Shown here one piece after another: positions 41,546 through 51,594 of a stretch of DNA of 64,000 nucleotides. The notes under the pieces were generated by a model. The model saw nothing but the letters and a program-made list of their open reading frames with translations. It did not search any database and was not told the origin of the DNA. Position 1 is the stretch's first letter. Each line of letters begins with the position of its first letter. Source of the DNA: Pyxidicoccus trucidator (lineage in GTDB: Bacteria > Myxococcota > Myxococcia > Myxococcales > Myxococcaceae). Both the position numbers and the translations under genes were made by a program. The stretch covers positions 310,001-374,000 of the forward strand of contig NZ_JAAIXZ010000006.1 in the NCBI RefSeq assembly GCF_010894435.1, written 5' to 3'.

Positions 41546-44278
41546 TCAGGGCAGGACGTTGGTGAGGCCACCCACGCGGGTGTTGTTGTCCTCAATCAAC
41601 TCGTTGCTGGTGCCGCCATTCACGTCCACGACGGCGCCCACGTTGTATGAGCCAGCCGGGACTCCGCTCGCGTACGCGTAGATGCTCACCGTCTGGCACT
41701 GCCCCGGGGCGAGGTAATCGACATACACGGAGCCCACGAAGTAGTCGGGCGACGGAGGGTACGGAGAGTACGCGTACGGAGTGATGACCGTGTCCTCGGA
41801 CAGGTACACGGCCATGTCGGTGCTCCCGTCCCACGTGCCCTGGTTGCACACCGTCGCCGAGGCTGTGAAGGACTGGCCCACCTGCACGCTCGAGGGCGCG
41901 GTGACGGACGTCACCACGAAGTCCGACTCGGCACCGACGCCGATGCGGCTGCCCGCGCGGGTGTTGTTGTCCTCGATGAACTCCATTGCCATGCCGAGCG
42001 GGTCCACCACGGCGCCGAGGTACCACGCGCCCTCCGAGCTGCCCGCGAACACGGAGACCGTCACCGTCTGGCACTGGCCCGGGGTGAGCATGTCGACGGG
42101 AGCCAAGCCCACGAGGACGTCCGGCCCGGAGCCATTCCGGTTCGGGGTGATGACCGTGTCCTCGGACAGGTAGATCTCCACGGCGTGGGCCCGCTCCGTC
42201 TGCGTCCCCTGGTTGCATACCTGCGCCGAGACATTGAATGACTCGTACGGCAGCACGCTCGTGGGGCCGCTGAGGGTCGTCACCACGAAGTCCGGCCGGT
42301 AGCCCCAGCCGAAGAGGCTGCCCGTGAGGGTGTTGTTGTCCTCGATGAGCTCGGAGACCCAGAGGACCGGGTCCGCGGCGGCGCCCAGGTAGTACATGCC
42401 GTCCGCCGGTCCATAGCCGTAGGTGGTGATGGTCAGCGTCTGGCACGCGCCCGGAGCCAGCGGGTTCGAGCGGCCGTAGCCGATGCGCGTGTCGACGTGA
42501 GGGCCGTACATGTGGTTCGGGGTGATGACGGAGTCCTGCGACAGGACGATTTCCACGTGGGAACTGTCTTCGCGAGTGCCCTGGTTGCACACCGTCGCCG
42601 TGACGTTGAAGGACTGGCCGGACGGCGCGCTCTTGGGGCCACTGAGGGCCGTCACCACGAAGTCCGCCCTGAACCCCACGCCGATGAGGTTGCCCGCGTG
42701 GGTGTTGTTGTCCTCGAGCAGCTCCGCCCGGACGCCGCGCGGGTCCACCACGGCGCCCAGGTAGTACGCCTGCTCCGGCACGCTCGCGGAGCCCGTCACC
42801 GTCAAGGTGCGGCACGCGCCCGCCGCGAGGTCCACGTGGCCCAGGCCCACGGGCCGGTCCGTGTTCGGACCCGGCGTCGTCGTCGGGGTGATGATGACGT
42901 CCTGCGACAGGTACAGCTCCACGTCGGCACCGCCGCTCGCCGTTCCCTGGTTGCATACCCGGACCGCCGCGCTGATGGAGGCACCGGGCATTGCACTGGA
43001 AGTGCCGGAGACGGACGACACCACGAAGTCAGGGCCGTCGCCGAACCCCATGCGGCTGCCCACGCGGGTGTTGTTGTCCTCGAAGAACTCCGGGGTGCCG
43101 TTGAGCGGGTCCACCATGGCGCCCAGGTAGTACTGACCCTGGATCCAACCCGGGTAGCCCTCATAGGTGCGCGTCACGCACTGCCCCGGGGCAAGCTGCT
43201 CGATGGAGTCGTAGGCAATCGGCAGGTCCGCCGAGGTGCCTCGGGGGGTGATGACGGCGTCCTGGGACACGTACCACTCCAAACGTGCGGATCCAGGCTG
43301 CGTGCCCTGGTTGCACACCGTCGCGGTGATGGAGAGGTAGCCGCCCGACGGCAAGCTCGCGGGCCCGCTGACGGCGGTGACGACCAGCTCCGGCATGTTG
43401 CCCACGCCGATGCGGCTGCCCAGGCGGGTGTTGTTGTCCTCGATGAGCTCGGGGGTGGAGTTGCCGGGGTCCACGATGGCGCCCACGTACCAGAGGCCCT
43501 CGCCGAACCCTCCGCCCGCCGACCGCACCTGCTCCGTCCGGCACTGCCCCGGAGCCAGCGATTGGAAGTACAGGCTTCCCACGAGCAGGTCGCTGAGGGG
43601 ACTGGGAGGACTGCGCGAGACGATGTTCGCGTCCCCGGACAGGTACAGCTCCAGCAGCCCGCCGCCGGACTGCGTGCCCTGGTTGCACACCGACACGGAG
43701 ACGGTGAACGGCTGACTGGGCGGCGTGCTGATGGGGGCGGTGATGGAGGACACCACCAGGTCCGGCTTGTCGCCCACGCCAATGCGGCTGCCCAGTTGGA
43801 GGTTGTTGGCCTCGTTGGTCTCCATGAGCTGGTTCATGGGGTCCGCGGCGGCGCCCAGGAAGTACGCCCCCTGGACACTCACCGAGGCGACGACCTGCGC
43901 CTGCTCCGTCCGGCACTCGCCCGCCTTGAGAGACATGACGACGTAGCCCACCATCAGGTCGGGCGTGGGACTGGTAGGGGTGTTGGGGGTGATGATGTTG
44001 TCGCTCGACAGGTACAGCTCCACGTTCGCGCTGCCGGTAAACCCGCCCTGGTTGCAGGCCCGCACCGCCACGTACGTGGGCTGGCCGGACTGCACGCTCG
44101 TGGGCCCCGTCACCGATGCAACGACGAAGTCCGGCCCCTTGGCCAGGGCCTGCGCCGTGACTCCAGGAGACACCGCCTCGGGAGCCTGGGACGCCTGGGG
44201 TGCCTCACCACACGCGGCCAGCGCCAGCCAGGCCCCGAGCCCCGTGACACATCTGCTTCTCACACTTCGGAAATGCAT
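41546..44278 (-). CDS. CARDB-repeat lipoprotein (seven units)
   Basis: A 910-residue lipoprotein. The signal VTGLGAWLALAAC gives lipidated Cys. Seven tandem CARDB (cell-adhesion-related) units of roughly 122-125 residues each start with an ExP/DxxV motif: PDFVVASVTGPTSVQSG, PDLVVSSITAPIS, PELVVTAVSGPASLPSG, PDFVVSSVSGTSSAMPG, ADFVVTALSGPKSAPSG, PDFVVTTLSGPTSVLPY, SDFVVTSVTAPSSVQVG. Each also carries ACNQG/VCNQGT, a YLS-type strand and an ending EDNNTRxGSRIGVG. The units are close to each other in sequence and look recently duplicated. Such Ig-like stacks are surface adhesion or display modules. No catalytic domain is present. The last unit is slightly shorter at its end. Confidence 0.88.
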   Translation of the reverse strand: MHFRSVRSRCVTGLGAWLALAACGEAPQASQAPEAVSPGVTAQALAKGPDFVVASVTGPTSVQSGQPTYVAVRACNQGGFTGSANVELYLSSDNIITPNTPTSPTPDLMVGYVVMSLKAGECRTEQAQVVASVSVQGAYFLGAAADPMNQLMETNEANNLQLGSRIGVGDKPDLVVSSITAPISTPPSQPFTVSVSVCNQGTQSGGGLLELYLSGDANIVSRSPPSPLSDLLVGSLYFQSLAPGQCRTEQVRSAGGGFGEGLWYVGAIVDPGNSTPELIEDNNTRLGSRIGVGNMPELVVTAVSGPASLPSGGYLSITATVCNQGTQPGSARLEWYVSQDAVITPRGTSADLPIAYDSIEQLAPGQCVTRTYEGYPGWIQGQYYLGAMVDPLNGTPEFFEDNNTRVGSRMGFGDGPDFVVSSVSGTSSAMPGASISAAVRVCNQGTASGGADVELYLSQDVIITPTTTPGPNTDRPVGLGHVDLAAGACRTLTVTGSASVPEQAYYLGAVVDPRGVRAELLEDNNTHAGNLIGVGFRADFVVTALSGPKSAPSGQSFNVTATVCNQGTREDSSHVEIVLSQDSVITPNHMYGPHVDTRIGYGRSNPLAPGACQTLTITTYGYGPADGMYYLGAAADPVLWVSELIEDNNTLTGSLFGWGYRPDFVVTTLSGPTSVLPYESFNVSAQVCNQGTQTERAHAVEIYLSEDTVITPNRNGSGPDVLVGLAPVDMLTPGQCQTVTVSVFAGSSEGAWYLGAVVDPLGMAMEFIEDNNTRAGSRIGVGAESDFVVTSVTAPSSVQVGQSFTASATVCNQGTWDGSTDMAVYLSEDTVITPYAYSPYPPSPDYFVGSVYVDYLAPGQCQTVSIYAYASGVPAGSYNVGAVVDVNGGTSNELIEDNNTRVGGLTNVLP

Positions 44279-44403: not shown

Positions 44404-45297
44404 TCAGCTCACCACGGGCAGCGAGAAGCCGGCGACCTTGCCGGCGTCCGGACGGGCCACACCGGCGGCTTCGTTCATGCGGCCGGAGCGGAACGGCTCC
44501 AGATCCAACGACACGAACTTGAAGCCCAGCGCCAGGAAGGCCGCGTTGACCTTCTGGCGCACGTCGGCGGAAAGGAACCGCTCGTACTCCTCGGCCGCCA
44601 CCTCCAGCCGCGCCACCTCCTGGTGGTAGCGCACGCGGAACTGGCGGAAGCCGAGCTTGCGCATCTCGGACTCGGCGGACGCAATCTGGATGAGCCTGTC
44701 CCGCGTCACCGCCGTGCCATACGGAATGCGCGACGCCAGGCACGCCATCTGCGGCTTGTCCCATGTGGGCAGCCCCAGCGACTGGCTCCAGGCGCGAATC
44801 TCGTCCTTCGTCAGCCCCGCCTGCGCCAGCGGGGACACCACCTTGTGCTCCTGCGCCGCCTTGTGGCCGGGCCGGTGGTCCTTGAAGTCGTCCGCGTTGA
44901 AGCCGTCCAGCACCACCGCCAGCCCCAGCTCGCTCCGCCGGGCCTCGCAGATGTCGTACAGCTCCGTCTTGCAGAAGTAGCAGCGGTTGGTGGGGTTGGC
45001 CGCGTACTGCGGGTTGGCCAGCTCGTTGCTGCCCACCACCACGTGCCGGGCCCCCATGCGCTCCGCCAGCTCCCGCGCCTCCTGCGCCTCCTCCGGCGCC
45101 ACGGACGCGGACAGCGCGGTGAGCGCCAGGGCGCGCTCGCCCAATTCCTCCACCGCCACCTTCAGCACGAAGGTGGAGTCCACCCCGCCGGAGAAGGCCA
45201 CCAGCGCGCTGCCATGGGCGCGCAGCGCCGCACGCATCGCCTCCAGCTTCGGGCGCGAGGACTCACACAGGCTCTGGATCCGCTCGGGGCTCAGCAT
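44404..45297 (-). CDS. larE: LarE-like sacrificial sulfur transferase
   Basis: A 297-residue PP-loop enzyme. In the nickel-pincer nucleotide pathway LarE adenylates and sulfurates the pyridinium dicarboxylate precursor, giving up its own Cys sulfur. Seen: the PP-loop SGGVDST (36-42), GSNELANPQYAANPTNRCYF (a conserved LarE stretch), and the candidate sulfur-donor Cys186 in WDKPQMACLASRIPYG. Length is normal. No larA, larB or larC is in the window, so it may serve another thiolation. AGGAG eight bases upstream supports the ATG. Just upstream, after the APS kinase stop, lies a strong hairpin and T run that may attenuate its expression. Confidence 0.88.
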   Translation of the reverse strand: MLSPERIQSLCESSRPKLEAMRAALRAHGSALVAFSGGVDSTFVLKVAVEELGERALALTALSASVAPEEAQEARELAERMGARHVVVGSNELANPQYAANPTNRCYFCKTELYDICEARRSELGLAVVLDGFNADDFKDHRPGHKAAQEHKVVSPLAQAGLTKDEIRAWSQSLGLPTWDKPQMACLASRIPYGTAVTRDRLIQIASAESEMRKLGFRQFRVRYHQEVARLEVAAEEYERFLSADVRQKVNAAFLALGFKFVSLDLEPFRSGRMNEAAGVARPDAGKVAGFSLPVVS

Positions 45298-45309
45298 GGG
45301 GCAACTCCT

Positions 45310-45363
45310 AAAACGGAAGGGCTCCGGATTGCACGCTCAACGAGCGGCAACCTGGAGCCCTTC
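45310..45363 (-). terminator. Intercistronic hairpin with short T run before larE
   Basis: On the minus strand, arms gaagggctcc and ggagcccttc enclose GG-TTGC-CGCTC paired with GAGCG-GCAA-CC around a GTT loop, about 21 base pairs with single bulges. CG and TTTT follow (45315-45310), then the larE Shine-Dalgarno AGGAG (45309-45305). This looks like a terminator for the APS-kinase gene or an attenuator controlling larE readthrough. Confidence 0.75.
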
Positions 45364-45396
45364 GAGGTGGGAAGCGGGGGCCCGAGGGCCCGTCGC

Positions 45397-46197
45397 TCAG
45401 CGGGCCTTGTGCTTCGCGGGCTTCTTGGCCGCGGCGGCGGGCTTCGCCACCCGGGCCGCGCGCGTGGCCGGACGCGCCTTGGCGCCCTTGTCCGCCTTGG
45501 CGGGCTTCGCCACCGGACGGGCCTCTTCAGCGCGGCGGGCCTTGGCACCCTTGTCCGCCTTGGCGGCGCCCTTGTCGGCCTTCTCGCCCTTGTCGGCCTT
45601 CTCGCCCTTCGCCGGCAGCGGGTTGGCCTTCATCTTCTTGCCGGTGATGGTCTTCAGCTCCTCGGTGTTCATGTAGCCGAGGTCCAGGAGCGACTGGAAG
45701 ATCTTCGCGGCGCCGTCCTCCACCGACTCGGTGTCGGAGTGGATGGTGACCTCCGGCGAGTTGGGCGGCTCATACGGCTCGGTGATGCCGATGAAGTTGG
45801 GGATCTCCCCGTTGAGCGCCTTCTTGTAGCGACCCGTGGAGTCGCGCTCGATGAGCTTCTCGGTCGGGCAGTCGACGTAGACCTCGACGTAGCGGCCGAT
45901 GGCGCGACGGTTCTCCTCGCGGCCCGTCTTGTACGGGCTCACGCAGGGAACCAGCGCGGCGACGCCGTTGCGGGTCAGGAGGTTCGCCACGAAGCCCAGG
46001 CGGCGCACCACCGTGGTGCGGTCCTCCTTGGCATCGCTCAGCCCGGCCCAGAGCGCCTCGCCGAGCTCGCCTTCGTCGAGAATCTCCACGTTGCGGCCTA
46101 CCTGCCGGAGGCGCGCCGCGATGTAGGCGGCCGTCGTGCTCTTCCCGGTCCCGGACATGCCGGTCAGCCAGAGGGTGAAACCAGTGTTGGGGGCCAT
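45397..46197 (-). CDS. cysC: Adenylylsulfate kinase-like protein with a lysine/alanine tail
   Basis: A 266-residue protein. The core (about 1-185) matches APS kinase, which phosphorylates adenylylsulfate to PAPS: P-loop GMSGTGKST, then RTTVVRRLGFVANLLTRNGV, ALVPCVSPYKTGREENR and FIGITEPYEPPNSPEV. The usual DGDNVR motif after the P-loop is changed to DEGELG, so the canonical Mg/APS residues are lost, and substrate or activity may differ. The final about 75 residues are Lys/Ala/Pro-rich (KADKGEKADKGAAKADKG, ATRAARVAKPAAAAKKPAKH), like histone-H1-type tails. Start ATG 46197. A clear promoter lies upstream, and sulfate adenylyltransferase is not in the window. Confidence 0.8.
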   Translation of the reverse strand: MAPNTGFTLWLTGMSGTGKSTTAAYIAARLRQVGRNVEILDEGELGEALWAGLSDAKEDRTTVVRRLGFVANLLTRNGVAALVPCVSPYKTGREENRRAIGRYVEVYVDCPTEKLIERDSTGRYKKALNGEIPNFIGITEPYEPPNSPEVTIHSDTESVEDGAAKIFQSLLDLGYMNTEELKTITGKKMKANPLPAKGEKADKGEKADKGAAKADKGAKARRAEEARPVAKPAKADKGAKARPATRAARVAKPAAAAKKPAKHKAR

Positions 46198-46275
46198 AAG
46201 CCTGTTCAACTCCCTGCGTCCGGAGCGCTTCTTGCAAGCTGCGTGAGGACGCCGCAGATCCAGAAGATGCGGGAG

Positions 46276-46305
46276 GTTATAGACGAAAACCCCCTCACTT
46301 GACAA
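46276..46305 (-). promoter_or_regulatory. Candidate sigma-70 promoter of cysC
   Basis: Reading the minus strand, TTGTCA (46305-46300) is followed after 18 bases by TATAAC (46281-46276), a 5/6 match to the -10 consensus. Transcription would begin about 70 bases before the ATG at 46197. Confidence 0.6.
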
Positions 46306-46390
46306 TTCGCACACACCTTTCCGCAGGTGGGGTGAGCGAGCAGTCAAGTGCCTGCCGATACATGGGTTTTTCGTTTATGAAATGACTTTT

Positions 46391-46819
46391 TCAGGTCTCT
46401 CGGAGCCTGAAAACATCCCCCCTCCACTCGTACTCGGACACCCAGAGCACACAGCCCCGATGTACGGATCCGATGAGGTAGGAAACTCCGGGTAGCAGCG
46501 GCTGACCTCCCGGGGCGGCCTGGGCGTGGTCCTCCGAAGAAAAGGTGGCGGGGGCCTCCACATGCGAGTGGAACACGCACACCACCCGCTCTCCCCGTGC
46601 GTCAGCCTCCATGCACACGGCCAGCCACTCCTCGGGGGAGAAGGCGTAGGCGGTGCGGGGCCTGGGGGACACGTTGGCCAGGGGGCGCACCCGACAGGGG
46701 CCGGCCGTCCCCTCCTGGAGGATGACGCCGCAGCCCTCGTGTGGCCAGGCGGCCTCCAGGTGGCGGAGGACGGCGTCGCGCACGCCTTCCGGCCAGCCGG
46801 GCTCGGGCCAGCGGCTCAC
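46391..46819 (-). CDS. JAMM/MPN-type metallopeptidase
   Basis: A 142-residue single-domain JAB/JAMM protein. The catalytic Glu is in EGCGVIL and the zinc motif reads HSHVEAPATFSSED (HxH, then Ser and Asp), a full JAMM set. The family hydrolyses isopeptide or C-terminal amide bonds; in Mycobacterium Mec+ releases cysteine from the carrier CysO. Start is GTG 46819, overlapping the TGA of the E1-like gene upstream (GTGA), so translation is coupled. Length equals stand-alone bacterial JAMM proteins. It is last in the carrier cluster. Likely it cleaves an amino-acid adduct from the ThiS-like carrier. Confidence 0.85.
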   Translation of the reverse strand: MSRWPEPGWPEGVRDAVLRHLEAAWPHEGCGVILQEGTAGPCRVRPLANVSPRPRTAYAFSPEEWLAVCMEADARGERVVCVFHSHVEAPATFSSEDHAQAAPGGQPLLPGVSYLIGSVHRGCVLWVSEYEWRGDVFRLRET

Positions 46820-47457
46820 GGCCGGGCCGGCTCCGCGCTCCCGGCACAGCGGGCGCACTGGCGGACCTCCAGTTCCTCCACGACGCCCGGGGCCACCAGC
46901 CACCGGCCGCCCAGCGCCGGCCCCAGGCCCAGGCGCAGCCGCTGGAAGACGAGGGCGCCCAGGGCCCCCAGCGCCACGCCCAGCGCTCCATCCGGAGGCT
47001 GGGCCAGGTGCCGCACCGTCTCGCCGAAGCACCACACGCAGCCGTCCGCGCCTCGGAAGACGACGGCGGCCCGCATGCCATCGCCGCCCAGGGCCACCCA
47101 GGGGGCCTCGCCGCTCCAGCCCGAGGGCAGCTCCGCCACCAGTCCCCCACCCCGCCCGGCTCCAGCCGCGTCCGGGTTCAGCTCGGGGACGGCCCGGGCC
47201 AGCGACTCCACCGCGGGGCGGCCCACGTCCTCCGCCGACACGAGGAAGCCCGGCGCCCAGGGGCCCAGCGTCAGCGAGCCCGTGCCCACCACCGGCGTGC
47301 CGCTCCCGGCGAGGTACGCCGCGGCCGTCAATCCCGAGGCGCCCGTGGCATCCACGCGCGCGGCCCCCGCCAGCAGCGCCTCCTGCCCGCGTCCGCCCAC
47401 CTCGCGCAGGAGGATCTGCCGGGAGTAGCGGACAATCTGGTCTTCGCGCAGCGCCAT
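46816..47457 (-). CDS. Degenerate ThiF/MoeB (E1-like) protein
   Basis: A 213-residue relative of the ThiF/MoeB E1 family. The N-terminus RYSRQILLREVGGRGQEALL matches the family, but the nucleotide-binding GxGGLG loop is replaced by DATGASGLTAAA, and the Arg/Asp/Lys residues that bind ATP and carrier C-terminus are missing. The C-terminal end has a single CARC motif (zinc-like or redox). With the intact E1 encoded upstream, this is probably a non-catalytic partner, or an adaptor. It overlaps the JAMM start (GTGA) and lies eight bases after the carrier gene. Alternative: a decayed duplicate; the intact frame and coupling argue against simple decay. Confidence 0.75.
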   Translation of the reverse strand: MALREDQIVRYSRQILLREVGGRGQEALLAGAARVDATGASGLTAAAYLAGSGTPVVGTGSLTLGPWAPGFLVSAEDVGRPAVESLARAVPELNPDAAGAGRGGGLVAELPSGWSGEAPWVALGGDGMRAAVVFRGADGCVWCFGETVRHLAQPPDGALGVALGALGALVFQRLRLGLGPALGGRWLVAPGVVEELEVRQCARCAGSAEPARP

Positions 47458-47465
47458 GACGGGCC

Positions 47466-47738
47466 TCAGCCTCCCGCCATGGCGGGGATGAGGGTGAGCC
47501 GGTCCGCGTCCTTCACCGGCGTGTCCAACTCGCCCAGGGCGCGGATGTCCTCGTCGTTGAGGAAGACGTTGACGTAGCGGCGCACGGCTCCGCGCTCGTC
47601 GAACAGGCGCGCGCCGAGGCCGGGGTAGCGCGCGTCCAAGTCCTTCAGCACCTCGCGCACGGTGGCGCCGGAGGCCGTCACCTCGGACTGGTTGCGCGTG
47701 AGGGCGCGCATCGTGCTGGGAATGCGGATGGTCGCCAT
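47466..47738 (-). CDS. ThiS/MoaD-family sulfur carrier
   Basis: A 90-residue ubiquitin-fold carrier with the C-terminal Gly-Gly needed for adenylation and thiocarboxylate formation (ends LIPAMAGG, no extension to remove). Family-like stretches: VREVLKDLDARYPGLGARLF and VFLNDEDIRALG. It most resembles the CysO-like subgroup. It should be activated by the E1 encoded by the last gene of the cluster and receive sulfur from the TusA-like protein. Because it already ends in GG, the JAMM protein would not mature it but could cut a bound product. Confidence 0.88.
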   Translation of the reverse strand: MATIRIPSTMRALTRNQSEVTASGATVREVLKDLDARYPGLGARLFDERGAVRRYVNVFLNDEDIRALGELDTPVKDADRLTLIPAMAGG

Positions 47739-47741
47739 GGC

Positions 47742-47981
47742 TCACCTCCCCTGCTTGCGGAGCAGCAACACGTGCGTCCCGTCGGGGCGCGCCTCCAGGG
47801 AGACGACTTCGTGTCCCTCGTCGCGCGCGTTGCGGGGCACGTTCTTCAGCGGCTCGGCGCCCCGGAGGAGGACCTCCAGCAGCGTCCCCGGCTCCAGCGA
47901 CTCCAGCTTCAGCTTGGTTCGCACGTAGGTCATCGGGCAGACCTCGCGGGTGATGTCGAGCGTGGCCCCTACCTCGGACAT
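47742..47981 (-). CDS. TusA/SirA-like sulfur-relay protein
   Basis: A 79-residue protein. The active Cys is in REVCPMTYVRTKLKLESL, the usual CPxP replaced by CPMT, and the KL..LxxG/EPG pattern (LEPGTLLEVLLRG) follows. TusA proteins accept persulfide sulfur on this Cys and pass it on. Here the recipient is probably the ThiS-like carrier. AGGAGA lies seven bases before the ATG, and the frame ends four bases before the carrier gene. The second conserved residue of the motif (Pro to Thr) is unusual. Confidence 0.85.
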   Translation of the reverse strand: MSEVGATLDITREVCPMTYVRTKLKLESLEPGTLLEVLLRGAEPLKNVPRNARDEGHEVVSLEARPDGTHVLLLRKQGR

Positions 47982-48067
47982 GACGCGGTCTCCTGGCTGG
48001 CTCGGGCGATGGTGTCCGGGGACACGCGCGCACGGGCCCGTGGGTGCGGCTTCGGAGTCGCCGTCAT
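47969..48067 (-). CDS. Possible coupled short reading frame (32 residues)
   Basis: It starts at an ATG overlapping the stop of the E1 gene (ATGA, 48067-48064) and ends in TAG 13 bases inside the TusA gene. The product would be MTATPKPHPRARARVSPD and onward, basic and Arg/Pro-rich. It may only couple translation from the E1 gene into the TusA gene. It could also be chance. Confidence 0.3.
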   Translation of the reverse strand: MTATPKPHPRARARVSPDTIARASQETASCPR

Positions 48068-48840
48068 GACGCACAGGCCCCGCCCTCCCGAGCGGCCTCC
48101 GGGTACTCCGGAACCGCGGTGACGCGGCAGCCCGGGCAGTCCGGCGCGCGCTCCACGCGGACGCGGCGGCCCAGCAGGGACACGCCGTCCAGCACGTGGA
48201 GGGTGGCCTCGCCGGGAGCGGGGCGCGCGGCACCGGACAGCAGCTCCAGCGCGAGCAGCGCCTGCACCGCGCCCACCAGCCCCGCGAGCGAGCCGAGCAC
48301 CCCCGCCTGCGCGCACGTGGGCACCGCGTCCGGCGGAGGCGGCGCCTCGTAGAGACAGCGCAGGCAGGGCCCGCGCGGGTCCACCCGCATCGCCTGCCCC
48401 TGCATGCGCAGCACGCCGCCGTAGACGAGCGGTACACCCGTCAGCACGGCCACGTCCGAGAGGAAGAACTTGGTGGCCACCCCATCCGTGGCGTCGATGA
48501 CGGCGTCATGCGCGCGGAAGAGGGCCTCGGCGTTGCCCGCGTCCACGCGCTCGGCGAGGGCCTCGGTGGACAGCGCGGGGAAGGCGCGCGCCAGGCCGGC
48601 CGCCGCGGACTCCGCCTTGTTGCGGCCCACGTCCGAGGGCCGGTGCCAGAGCTGGCGCGGCAGGTTCGTCACGTCCACCCGGTCCGGGTCCGCGAGCGTC
48701 AGGTGGCCAACACCCGCCTGCGCCAGCGCCAGCGACGCCGGGCAGCCCAGGCCGCCGGCACCCACCAGGAGCACCCGCGCGCGCTCCAGGCGCGAGGCGT
48801 GGGGGATGCGAGGGTGATGGTCGGTGTCGTGCCCGTGCAT
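48064..48840 (-). CDS. MoeB/ThiF-type E1 carrier-activating enzyme
   Basis: A 258-residue adenylyltransferase that would activate the carrier C-terminus. Seen: LLVGAGGLGCPASLALAQAG (ATP-binding loop), the ADPDRVDVTNLPRQLWH acidic-to-Arg segment, DATDG followed by a Ser/Asp region, and two CxxC pairs (CLRC at about 188, CPGC near the end) for a structural zinc. The VPTCAQAGVLGSLAGLVGA stretch is the classical MoeB-like segment. Start ATG 48840 with AAGGGG eight bases upstream. First gene of the carrier cluster, divergent from a small lipoprotein. Confidence 0.88.
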   Translation of the reverse strand: MHGHDTDHHPRIPHASRLERARVLLVGAGGLGCPASLALAQAGVGHLTLADPDRVDVTNLPRQLWHRPSDVGRNKAESAAAGLARAFPALSTEALAERVDAGNAEALFRAHDAVIDATDGVATKFFLSDVAVLTGVPLVYGGVLRMQGQAMRVDPRGPCLRCLYEAPPPPDAVPTCAQAGVLGSLAGLVGAVQALLALELLSGAARPAPGEATLHVLDGVSLLGRRVRVERAPDCPGCRVTAVPEYPEAAREGGACAS

Positions 48841-48965
48841 CGGAATGCCCCTTCGCGAGGGGTCGGAAGCGAATAAGGTTCGAGCCCCTGCGTCCACCGA
48901 TGAAGTAAGGGCGCAGGCGCCCACCCACCGTGCCGCTTCGACGCGGACCTCACCTGCCAGGACAT

Positions 48966-49448
48966 ATGAGAAACCTGCCCGGCGTGCTCGTCTTTTCCAC
49001 CGCCCTCCTCCTCGCGGTCGGCTGCCACAAGAACACCGGCGAAGGCCCCGGTCCCACCGACGCCGCCTCCAGCGCCGACCCTCGCGACGCCATGGAGGCC
49101 GTGAAGGACGCGGGCGTCCCCTCGGAGGGCGCCCAGACAGGCACCTCGCGCGACGCGCTGACCGCCTCGGACGACGCGGGCTCGGGCGACGCGGGCGCCG
49201 CGACGAAGGACGGCGCCGGGATGGGCAAGAGCTCCGGCGGGGACCGTCAGGCGCAGGAGGCCTGCGTGGACCGCTGGCTCAAGTCCAAGGGGCTGGACAC
49301 GTACGGAAACGCCGAGGGCACCATGTACGCGGGTGGCACGCCCCTCTTCGACGAGCGCACCGGCGAGCGGCGAGACAGGCTGGACTACGTCTTCCAGCGC
49401 CAGCCCGACGCCCGCAAGGCCTGCGCGGGCGGCGCGTCCCCCAAGTAG
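48966..49448 (+). CDS. Lipoprotein of unknown function
   Basis: A 160-residue lipoprotein. Signal MRNLPGVLVFSTALLLAVGC, with Cys at 20. A long Asp/Ala/Ser/Gly-rich spacer (about 25-90) is followed by a compact C-terminal part with two Cys (AQEACVDRWLKSKGLDTYGN, DARKACAGG) and a stretch TPLFDERTGERRDRLDYVF. It is divergent from the E1 gene and has no recognised family. Confidence 0.7.
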   Translation: MRNLPGVLVFSTALLLAVGCHKNTGEGPGPTDAASSADPRDAMEAVKDAGVPSEGAQTGTSRDALTASDDAGSGDAGAATKDGAGMGKSSGGDRQAQEACVDRWLKSKGLDTYGNAEGTMYAGGTPLFDERTGERRDRLDYVFQRQPDARKACAGGASPK

Positions 49449-49558: not shown

Positions 49559-50842
49559 ATGAACACCCATCCCGCTCTGGGCGAGGAGACACCCGCCAAT
49601 GACCTGCGCGCCCGCGTGCGGGAGGTGCTGGAACGCCGCAAGCTGACGGACAGCGTGTCCGCCGAGCAGGCCACCGCCTCCTGGGAACAGGACCGCTTCG
49701 TGGCCCGCGCCCGCGCGCTCTTCTACGCGCGGATGATGTTCCTCACCCTGGGCCTGCTCATCCTCGCCGTGCCCGCGTGGAGCGGCTACTTCGGCCTCAC
49801 CGGCCCGTTCGCCTTCGTGGGCTACTTCACGATGCTGCTCTACAGCGTCGCGAACCTGCTGGTCATCGACCACCCGAAGGCCGGCCGCTGGGTGACGTAC
49901 ACCACGCTCTGCCTCGACCTGACCATCATGGTCGTGCTCATCGCCAAGCCCGTGGTGGGCGGCGGTCTGCAGAGCCCGCTGCTGGCCACCCAGCTGCTCT
50001 TCACCACGCTGTTCTCCATCCTCTACCCCAAGCCGCTGGCCATCCTCCCGCCGCTGCTGGCGCTGCCGATTACGACGCGCCTCGACTTGCTCCTCAACCG
50101 CTCGGTGACGGCGGTGGAGCTGCTGACGCTGCTCTGGTACCTCGCGCTCAACTTCATCATCGTCTACGTGCTGGTGTACCTGAACGAGCGCGAGGCCACC
50201 GCCCACCGCGAGGTGGTGTCCCTCCAGGGCGACCTGAAGGAGCTGGCGGTGGTGGAGGAGCGCAACCGGCTGGCGCGCGAGATCCACGATGGCCTGGGCG
50301 CGTCGCTCTCGTCGATGATCATCCAGGCCGAGTACATCCTGAACCTCACGCGTGAGGACGGCCTGCGCTCGGAGATCCGCGAGCTGAAGCTCACCGCGGA
50401 GGAGTCCATCGAAGAGCTGCGCCGCAACCTGCGGATGATGCGCGAGGACTTCGAGCTGGATCAGGGCCTGGAGGACTACGCGAAGACGTTCCGCGAGCGC
50501 ACCGGCCTGGACATCCGCTTCGAGCGCACCGGCCTGCAGCGCAAGCTGTCCCCGGACGCGCAGCTGGCGCTGTTCCGCATCCTCCAGGAGTCGCTGTCCA
50601 ACGCGGTGAAACACGCGGAGGCCAAGACCGTGAATGTGCGGCTCGACTTCAGCGAGGACCGCGTGCACCTCATCGTCCGCGACGACGGCAAGGGCTTCGA
50701 CCCGGCCCGTACGCCGCGCGGCCACTACGGCCTGCTGAACATGCGCGAGCGCGCCATGAAGCTCGGCGGCCAGCTCATCGTGGACTCGGCGCCGGGCGCT
50801 GGAGCCCAGGTGGCCTTCTCCCTTCCCTGCACGCCCTCATGA
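49559..50842 (+). CDS. Sensor histidine kinase, NarL-partner type
   Basis: A 427-residue integral-membrane histidine kinase. A short cytoplasmic N-terminus is followed by about six membrane helices (about 57-215; FLTLGLLILAVPAWSGYFGL, LLFTTLFSILYPKPLAIL, ALNFIIVYVLVYL). A HisKA_3 domain carries the phosphoacceptor His243 in REIHDGLGASLSSM, and the HATPase_c domain has NAVKHAEAKTV and DDGKGFDPARTPRGHYGL. The sensor is membrane-embedded without a periplasmic domain. The stop overlaps the start of the response regulator gene (ATGA), so both are made together. Confidence 0.92.
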   Translation: MNTHPALGEETPANDLRARVREVLERRKLTDSVSAEQATASWEQDRFVARARALFYARMMFLTLGLLILAVPAWSGYFGLTGPFAFVGYFTMLLYSVANLLVIDHPKAGRWVTYTTLCLDLTIMVVLIAKPVVGGGLQSPLLATQLLFTTLFSILYPKPLAILPPLLALPITTRLDLLLNRSVTAVELLTLLWYLALNFIIVYVLVYLNEREATAHREVVSLQGDLKELAVVEERNRLAREIHDGLGASLSSMIIQAEYILNLTREDGLRSEIRELKLTAEESIEELRRNLRMMREDFELDQGLEDYAKTFRERTGLDIRFERTGLQRKLSPDAQLALFRILQESLSNAVKHAEAKTVNVRLDFSEDRVHLIVRDDGKGFDPARTPRGHYGLLNMRERAMKLGGQLIVDSAPGAGAQVAFSLPCTPS

Positions 50843-51594
50843 CCGGAGTCCCCGTGGACGCCCCGCAGCCTCCCGCCGCGCCCCCTACGACGCCCATCCG
50901 CGTCTTCGTGGTGGAAGACCAGACGAAGATCCTCAAGAACCAGCTCCGCCTCTTCGAGGGCCACCAGGACATCGACATCGTCGGCACCGCGCTGTCCGGC
51001 GAGGCCGCGCTGGACGAGGTGCCGAAGCTGATGCCGGACGTGCTCCTGCTGGACCTGGGGCTGCCGCGCATGAGCGGTATCGACGTGACGCGCGAGGTGA
51101 AGGCGCGCTTCCCGCAGATTGAAATCCTCATCTTCACCATCTTCGACGAGGAGGACAAAGTGCTGGAGGCGGTGAAGGCCGGCGCGTCCGGCTACCTCCT
51201 CAAGGGCGCCCCGGTGGACAAGATCATCGAGGCCATCAAGGAGGTCCGCGCGGGCGGCACCGTCATCCAGCCCAACCTCGCCCGCCGGCTGCTGCGCCAC
51301 TTCCGCGTGGACCCGGACAGCGGCCCCGTGCCCACCGAGCCCGTGGCCGCCCCCGAGCCCCCGCCGGAGGCCCCGTCCCAGCAGGAGCCCCCGCTCAAGC
51401 CCCTGTCGGACCGCGAGCGGGAAATCCTCCAGCTCATCGCCAAGGGCGTGTCGAACAGCGAGGCGGCCCGCCTCCTCACCCTCAGCAAGGCCACCATCCG
51501 GACCCACCTGGAGCACATCTACCGGAAGCTGGAGGTGACCAACCGCGTCGAGGCCGTCACCGAGGGCATCCGCAAGGGCCTGATTTCCGTGTGA
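50839..51594 (+). CDS. NarL/LuxR-type response regulator
   Basis: A 251-residue transcription regulator. The receiver domain has the acidic pocket Glu26-Asp27 (VVEDQTK), phosphoacceptor Asp72 (LLLDLGLP), and the Lys in GYLLKG. A Pro/Glu-rich linker (about 155-185) leads to a GerE/LuxR helix-turn-helix (SDREREILQLIAKGVSNSEA then TIRTHLEHIYRKLEVTNR). It is the partner of the membrane kinase just upstream; the genes share an ATGA overlap. Targets cannot be read here. Confidence 0.94.
   Translation: MTGVPVDAPQPPAAPPTTPIRVFVVEDQTKILKNQLRLFEGHQDIDIVGTALSGEAALDEVPKLMPDVLLLDLGLPRMSGIDVTREVKARFPQIEILIFTIFDEEDKVLEAVKAGASGYLLKGAPVDKIIEAIKEVRAGGTVIQPNLARRLLRHFRVDPDSGPVPTEPVAAPEPPPEAPSQQEPPLKPLSDREREILQLIAKGVSNSEAARLLTLSKATIRTHLEHIYRKLEVTNRVEAVTEGIRKGLISV

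Follow-up and report, generated by a model that had tools for sequence, protein, structure and literature searches.

Organization of the Seven-Gene Block

The locus described here lies on contig NZ_JAAIXZ010000006.1 of Pyxidicoccus trucidator (assembly GCF_010894435.1), positions 310,001–374,000; this whole stretch of 64,000 nucleotides is referred to as the window. Seven genes are confirmed on its minus strand between window positions 44404 and 48840. They encode, in order, a catalytic E1, a TusA-type sulfurtransferase, a sulfur carrier, a degenerate E1 (pseudo-E1), a JAMM metallopeptidase, a protein resembling adenylylsulfate (APS) kinase, abbreviated APSK, and LarE. The residues retained by the active and the dead E1 are complementary, so that the two probably act together as one enzyme; this complementarity was missed in a preliminary description of the locus. 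Gene families were assigned by Pfam/NCBIfam profile searches, and both the families and the coordinates agree with that description.

The catalytic E1 (48064–48840, 258 amino acids) belongs to the ThiF/MoeB family and matches the ThiF profile with 214 bits over residues 16–236. The ATP-site residues, the catalytic cysteine and two CxxC pairs are all present, in line with the intact E1 motifs previously stated, and an N-terminal RYxRQ helix is absent. The TusA/SirA-type sulfurtransferase (47742–47981, 79 amino acids) matches the TusA family and carries a CPMT motif. The carrier (47466–47738, 90 amino acids) is a CysO-like protein of the ThiS/MoaD/SAMP1 type; it matches ThiS, and the SAMP1 model recognizes it barely over the cut-off (61 vs 60). 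Its C-terminus reads ...AMAGG followed directly by the stop codon, in agreement with the earlier view that no C-terminal trimming is required. The pseudo-E1 (46816–47457, 213 amino acids) keeps an RYSRQ helix, with R10 and R13, together with its CxxC pairs. Its ATP-site and catalytic residues are gone, and its match to the ThiF profile is limited to residues 11–97 and to 22 bits, under the cut-off of 28.

The JAMM/MPN+ metallopeptidase (46391–46819, 142 amino acids) matches the Prok-JAB family. Its ligand positions, assigned by the JAMM motif, are occupied by E28, H84, H86, S94 and D97, so that the motif is intact, as had been reported. The GTGA overlap between the pseudo-E1 stop codon and the GTG start of the JAMM gene is confirmed. 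What had been read as a second overlap, the ATGA at the end of E1, opens a short frame only, and TusA starts 82 bases further on; in some relatives, L016 among them, the E1 and TusA genes overlap. The APS-kinase-like gene (45397–46197) starts 193 bases after the JAMM gene, and the LarE gene (44404–45297) starts 99 bases after that of APSK.

Complementary Residue Losses in the Two E1 Proteins

In MoeB-type dimers, each ATP site receives one arginine from the partner subunit. We take MoeB Arg14 to be the equivalent of this trans arginine; in the E. coli sequence it is the second arginine of RYNRQ. The residues were compared in 69 cluster-E1 rows and 71 pseudo-E1 rows, 25 of each set coming from the genus of the window; the rows are not independent, since many represent close relatives. 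Contig-cut pseudo-E1 pieces (L038, L040, L103) were dropped from the Arg14 count, and the canonical E1s L050, L051 and L091 were kept aside as controls.

Among the cluster E1s, 68 of the 69 rows have a gap at Arg14, and the remaining one (L101) has a lysine that lies in frame upstream of the assigned E1 start. All of D62, N70, R73, K86, D130 and C187 are present in 58 rows, or in 63 when D62E is allowed. The pseudo-E1s show the complementary pattern: Arg14 is kept in 69/71, Arg11 in 68/71 and the first CxxC in 65–66/71, and of the six catalytic residues none is kept in 48 rows, one in 22 and two in a single row. The controls L050 and L091 hold the helix and the catalytic site within one protein. 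Since the active E1 lacks the arginine helix and the dead E1 keeps it, the two probably constitute one enzyme; the complementary pattern covers eight families. Judging from its residue losses, the pseudo-E1 is predicted to be the inactive adenylation subunit. A split, heterodimeric bacterial E1, with labour divided as in SAE1/UBA2, is therefore regarded as a strongly favoured reading of these sequences, and the two subunits would be expected to associate physically.

The possibility that the annotated catalytic E1 starts too late was rejected, since no RYxRQ occurs in up to 40 upstream open-frame residues at 24 genus loci. Outside the genus, the assigned starts of some E1s lie no more than about ten residues ahead of the first strand. 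The pseudo-E1 was likewise rejected as a pseudogene, being conserved across the genus and across families with one motif intact.

The pattern was followed further in 20 loci, chosen by catalytic-E1 matches in genomes of the genome set whose pseudo-E1 had not previously been fetched; two of them (G134 and G153) had already been met as L141 and L168. A neighbouring pseudo-E1 with the helix was found in 19 of the 20, and the remaining locus is cut by a contig end. The helix motif reads RYxRQ/H or RFxRQ in 18 cases and QYSRQ in one (L219). In genomes G125 and G127, the pseudo-E1 helix is lost, the E1 is without N70, R73, D130 and C187, and TusA has no match, which reads as a concerted decay of both E1 partners. 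A long canonical E1 is the top match to either E1 query in five genomes (G093, G095, G096, G121 and G123).

Outside Myxococcota, E1s that stand beside a TusA with the CP[ML]T motif in Chitinivibrionales (L154), Sumerlaeota (L204) and Planctomycetota (L217) carry their own RYSRH/RYSRN helix. No pseudo-E1 match lies beside them among the listed loci, a gene-level listing that covers 39 of a set of 80 loci comprising named relatives and loci outside Myxococcota. These three E1s, neighbours of the same TusA type, thus appear to be unsplit. The CPMT-type TusA also occurs without an E1 match in the fetched stretch (L164, L176, L180, L182, L197, L208, L211 and L214, from Acidocella, Acidisphaera and Acetobacteraceae, and others); in these cases TusA of this type has a use of its own.

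The AlphaFold2 model of the pseudo-E1, built from a 33-row alignment, has a predicted local distance difference test (pLDDT) score of 91.7 and a predicted template modelling (pTM) score of 0.89, and adopts the MoeB/ThiF fold. In structure comparison it matches MoeB (Z 18.2, 199 residues, 3.1 Å) and ThiF (Z 18.2), as well as the SUMO E1 chain 1y8q_C (Z 17.6) and the NEDD8 E1 chain 3dbh_A (Z 17.1). Judging from their lengths, the latter two chains would be the inactive halves SAE1 and APPBP1. In the phylogenetic tree, which gives no date for the E1 split, the catalytic E1s form a group that also takes in a single canonical row on a long branch; five pseudo-E1 rows stand apart. Because the pseudo-E1 profile also matches canonical E1s, a phylum survey with this profile (182 of 195 genomes) exaggerates how widely the pseudo-E1 occurs and does not serve as a count.

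Conservation and Surroundings of the Block

Conservation was assessed in a genus set of 25 genomes (G000–G024), consisting of the window's own genome, G000, and 24 others that were fetched. The order E1-TusA-carrier-pseudo-E1-JAMM-APSK-LarE is common to all 25. The block is also found in other families of the order, with parts lost or gained, so that the search for the same gene order suggested by the preliminary description has been answered positively; the conservation exceeds chance by far. The pseudo-E1 gene is interrupted by a contig end in G001 and G024; the two assemblies break at a nearly identical spot, near residue 100.

A wider survey covered 93 loci of one order, including 26 loci of the genus, and named relatives with the block comprise Pyxidicoccus, Corallococcus, Archangium, Hyalangium and Citreicoccus records. 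The JAMM gene is present in 67 of the 93 loci, LarE stands at the block end in 78, and a PALP-family gene lies within the block in 10. The 15 loci without LarE are explained by contig ends in 11 cases, G027 among them, and by second E1 copies in three, leaving one true absence (L047).

Several natural fusions were observed: pseudo-E1 with JAMM in L100, E1 with TusA in L044, and E1 with the carrier in L047. Three loci of genus g45 (L113, L114 and L115) have the carrier joined in frame to the front end of the pseudo-E1, and from this position its GG would need cutting free. Apparent pseudo-E1/JAMM fusions in L086 and L092 were rejected, the two matches sitting in different frames.

A record titled Comamonas sp. 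KCTC 72670 (L148) holds a seven-gene block with 67–92% identity to the window and is probably misnamed or mixed. The plasmid search gave 11 records, every one below 60% identity.

Divergent to the block, on the plus strand, lies a conserved lipoprotein-like gene (48957–49448), probably outside the pathway. It is followed by a histidine kinase (49559–50842) and a response regulator (50839–51594), likewise on the plus strand. Such a divergent pair flanks many of the 93 loci and is a possible regulator of the block. Downstream of LarE, on the minus strand, a 910-residue protein of repeat units (41546–44278) is unmatched in the loci of the genus and the relatives set.

LarE, the APS-Kinase-like Protein and the Carrier

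LarE matches TIGR00268 with 318 bits against a cut-off of 150 and, by its SGGVDS motif and the cysteines C106, C109 and C186, belongs to the [4Fe-4S] type. In Thermotoga maritima LarE, the cluster ligands are given as Cys92, Cys95 and Cys172 in PMC9283937; the spacing of 77 residues to the third cysteine is equal in the two proteins. Across 115 LarE loci, not all complete at contig ends, all three motifs of SGGxDS and CxxC-C are present in 107. In one relative (G030:C48:107829–108592, L046), LarE is matched as two neighbouring pieces, of which only one exceeds the cut-off, resembling a frame change.

The block LarE is the sole one above the cut-off in its own genome, and each of 41 genomes has a single LarE locus above it; larC is found in 40 of these and a LarA-like N-domain in 38. 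In the window's own genome, larB stands beside larC away from the block (G000:C12), and a LarA-like gene is present. With larC, larB and the LarA-like gene in the genome, the notion of a LarE without its cofactor pathway was rejected. LarE is also the only PP-loop thiolating enzyme encoded in the block.

The designation of the sixth protein as a variant APS kinase stands in part. The family is matched (APS_kinase, 144 bits), the P-loop is intact, with Lys41 kept in 83/83 APSK rows, and a Lys/Ala-rich tail follows. In M. tuberculosis CysC, the positions R68, F77, R82, K145 and F159 contact APS according to PMC4373884. With CysC numbering transferred to the APSK rows by spacing, R68 is kept in only 3/83 and K145 in 1/83, and the F77 position is aspartate in 50/83 and alanine in 12/83; R82 (79/83) and F159 (66/83) are retained. 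Furthermore, five APSK-bearing genomes (G027, G029, G030, G035 and G039) show no match to PF01507 (CysD/CysH) or PF01747 (Sat). Owing to the lost contacts and to these five genomes, a role in sulfate assimilation is unlikely on sequence grounds, and APSK was rejected as a working APS kinase. The annotation "APS kinase", widely kept in myxobacteria, is probably wrong.

CysO, CysM and Mec+ form a cysteine route in Mycobacterium tuberculosis. The nearest PDB entries to the carrier of the block are 4n6e_B and CysO of M. tuberculosis (3dwg_C, E 3e-20). In the ten blocks with a PALP-family gene, the SVKDR motif is intact in L046, L047, L049, L099 and L121. Upstream of E1 in L042 (3861–4772) and L049 (1665–2330), PALP-family genes were seen that have SIFDR or SWHDR in place of this lysine motif; the pathway may thus contain another active/degenerate pair. 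None of the 26 genus loci has a pyridoxal phosphate (PLP) synthase in the block, while LarE ends 78 of the 93 blocks, and for this reason the block by itself does not establish the complete pathway for making or repairing a sulfur compound that had been proposed.

Proposed Mechanism and Alternative Explanations

Taken together, the locus is read as a sulfur relay with a split E1 and with LarE as the most likely taker of the sulfur, to which we assign a probability of about 0.55. The catalytic E1 (48064–48840) would bind ATP and adenylate the C-terminal glycine of the carrier (47466–47738), with the pseudo-E1 (46816–47457) lending its arginine helix in trans, the part that SAE1 plays for UBA2. 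TusA would then pass persulfide sulfur on, giving the carrier thiocarboxylate. The adjacent [4Fe-4S] LarE would take this sulfur and thiolate pyridinium-3,5-biscarboxylic acid mononucleotide (P2CMN) for the nickel-pincer cofactor, resembling the transfer from TtuB-COSH to TtuA, and the JAMM enzyme would clear adducts of the carrier. We infer the direction of the sulfur flow, the acceptor role of LarE and the task of the JAMM protein.

The choice of LarE follows from several considerations. The APSK-LarE add-on is far commoner than the PLP cysteine synthase add-on among the blocks of the relatives. Four g18 loci have the order E1-TusA-carrier-pseudo-E1-APSK-LarE with neither JAMM nor a PLP synthase in the block (a fifth is contig-cut), and their carriers still end in GG. 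Finally, according to PMC3980101, Thermus TtuA receives sulfur from TtuB-COSH; in the same source, deletion of the JAMM gene gives aberrant TtuB adducts and less thiouridine. PMC9283937 reports that T. maritima LarE can use cysteine with IscS, Na2S not being usable, and its authors liken the enzyme to TtuA/TtuB. A delivery of sulfur from the carrier thiocarboxylate to LarE is thus suggested by gene order and precedent, and LarE as a taker in the window's genus is given odds just short of even. More tentative, and in our estimate clearly below even odds, is the combined proposal of an independently evolved bacterial heterodimeric E1 and a carrier acting as the physiological sulfur donor of a [4Fe-4S] LarE.

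A number of observations weigh against this reading. The carrier gene is not in the block in several lineages; in the complete genome G029, the single ThiS-family match lies away from the block, so that the relay there must use another carrier or none. LarE is present where no block was seen (for example in G026, G033 and G038), and G027 and G032 have their only LarE on a contig that does not carry the block. By analogy with the T. maritima enzyme, served by IscS and cysteine, LarE need not rely on a carrier at all. The frequency of JAMM and the PLP synthases within ten of the blocks point to a cysteine-type chemistry over LarE. As regards the split itself, the read-through chain of L044 (E1-TusA plus pseudo-E1) was modelled with a pLDDT of 69.9 and a pTM of 0.56, the pseudo-E1 part remaining below 60, and so yields no confident placement of the parts; this fold used E1 rows only, because a mixed alignment placed pseudo-E1 rows on the E1 half. 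Moreover, second copies in L106, L108 and L111, all of one family, combine an arginine-bearing pseudo-E1 with a dead E1. In these pairs (L106, 6544–7922; L108, 6549–7957; L111, 5667–7092), neither member has a catalytic site; a MoeA-like frame was noted by eye near the L108 pair.

The main rival to LarE as the taker is cysteine release. The same split E1 would serve a relay that makes cysteine or homocysteine in the manner of CysO/CysM/Mec+, with a PLP synthase encoded off the block coupling activated serine or homoserine to the carrier thiocarboxylate and the JAMM protein freeing the amino acid; APSK and LarE would then be operon neighbours with other jobs. The closeness of the carrier to CysO and 4n6e_B, the intact SVKDR motifs of five loci, the JAMM gene in most of the surveyed loci and the other PALP and Cys/Met PLP enzymes of the own genome all speak for it. 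The best match of that genome to the block-type cysteine synthase, however, reaches 204 bits, compared with 519–586 in the top six rows (the profile was built from three of these), although the genus member G020 has a 337-bit match off the block. In addition, the g18 blocks have carrier and LarE genes but neither JAMM nor a PLP synthase, and three CysD/CysH-family matches outside the block make the need for such a route uncertain in the own genome. Cysteine release is accordingly held to be a serious possibility, yet one clearly below even odds.

That the pseudo-E1 is instead a scaffold or regulator, docking the carrier, TusA or JAMM beside a catalytic E1 homodimer that no longer needs the arginine, would agree with its fusions to JAMM (L100) and to the carrier (L113–L115), with the three second copies retaining the arginine beside a dead partner, and with the well-kept first CxxC. 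It leaves unexplained why Arg14 and its flanking helix are retained in a protein that has lost its own ATP site, why the helix is absent from the catalytic partners, and why both partners decay in concert in G125 and G127; we consider it unlikely. Still less probable, to the point of being improbable, is an ordinary sulfur-assimilation operon of type 4e, with an APSK that produces 3'-phosphoadenylylsulfate (PAPS) and a second E1 that is a duplicate in decay. The parts list fits, adenylylsulfate kinase included, and two of the APS contacts are kept. Nevertheless, the supposedly decaying gene persists across eight families and still has one intact motif, without this gene the partner is not complete, the contacts at R68, K145 and F77 are largely lost despite the invariant Lys41, and the five APSK-bearing genomes named above have no CysD/CysH or Sat match. 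The split E1 with LarE as the acceptor remains the preferred reading.

Relation to Known Systems

The match to a thiocarboxylate relay of the JAB-E1-ThiS-SirA kind, proposed earlier, is borne out: it corresponds to the type 4e operons of Iyer et al. 2006 (PMC1779556), whose parts list includes an adenylylsulfate kinase. The core of that type is found together here, namely a ThiS/MoaD-like carrier, JAB, an E1 without rhodanese and SirA/TusA, along with a relative of adenylylsulfate kinase. No second E1 is mentioned in section 12 of that work, and Myxococcus appears nowhere in its main text. The block differs from type 4e in its two E1 genes with divided functions, in LarE at its end, in the absence of other sulfate genes from the block, and in an APSK relative missing several APS contacts. 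The degenerate E1 and LarE, earlier singled out as unusual partners, are therefore what sets it apart, and their combination appears to be new relative to the known type 4e operons. A search of the titles and abstracts of open-licence literature found no description of a split bacterial E1 or of a carrier feeding LarE.

With M. tuberculosis CysO/CysM/Mec+, the block shares a CysO-like carrier ending in GG and a JAMM protein; it differs in the absence of a PLP synthase from the block in the window's genus and in a split E1 without rhodanese. The Thermus thermophilus TtuA/TtuB/TtuC system with its JAMM protein (PMC3980101) likewise combines a carrier, an E1, a [4Fe-4S] PP-loop thiolating enzyme and JAMM, whereas here LarE, acting on a cofactor, replaces TtuA, acting on transfer RNA, and TusA and the split E1 are added. 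The LarE of T. maritima (PMC9283937) has the same SGGxDS and CxxC-C motifs; its sulfur donor was tested in vitro, while here larE stands in a carrier operon, apart from larB and larC. The block in this way suggests a concrete sulfur donor for [4Fe-4S] LarE.

One open question about how ubiquitin-like signalling arose is how a homodimeric, one-gene E1 of the MoeB type turned into an enzyme of two subunits, one of them dead; a small bacterial case, if true, would allow this transition to be studied with two short proteins. The MoeB, ThiF and Uba4 homodimers share with the block the fold, the ATP-site residues, the cysteine and the CxxC pairs, but carry the ATP site and the trans arginine on one polypeptide, where the block distributes them over two genes. 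SAE1/UBA2 and APPBP1/UBA3 are described as eukaryotic heterodimeric E1s in a review (PMC12355090), and resemble the pair described here in having one active and one inactive subunit, a preserved fold and an arginine expected in trans. The 258-residue E1, with ThiF extending over residues 16–236, contains no separate catalytic-cysteine (SCCH) domain and no C-terminal ubiquitin-fold domain and so is not a member of that family, even if its sequence suggests that it works alike. The bacterial pair, a small sulfur-carrier system of 258 and 213 amino acids with no E2 seen in the block, would appear to have arisen separately from the eukaryotic heterodimeric E1s.

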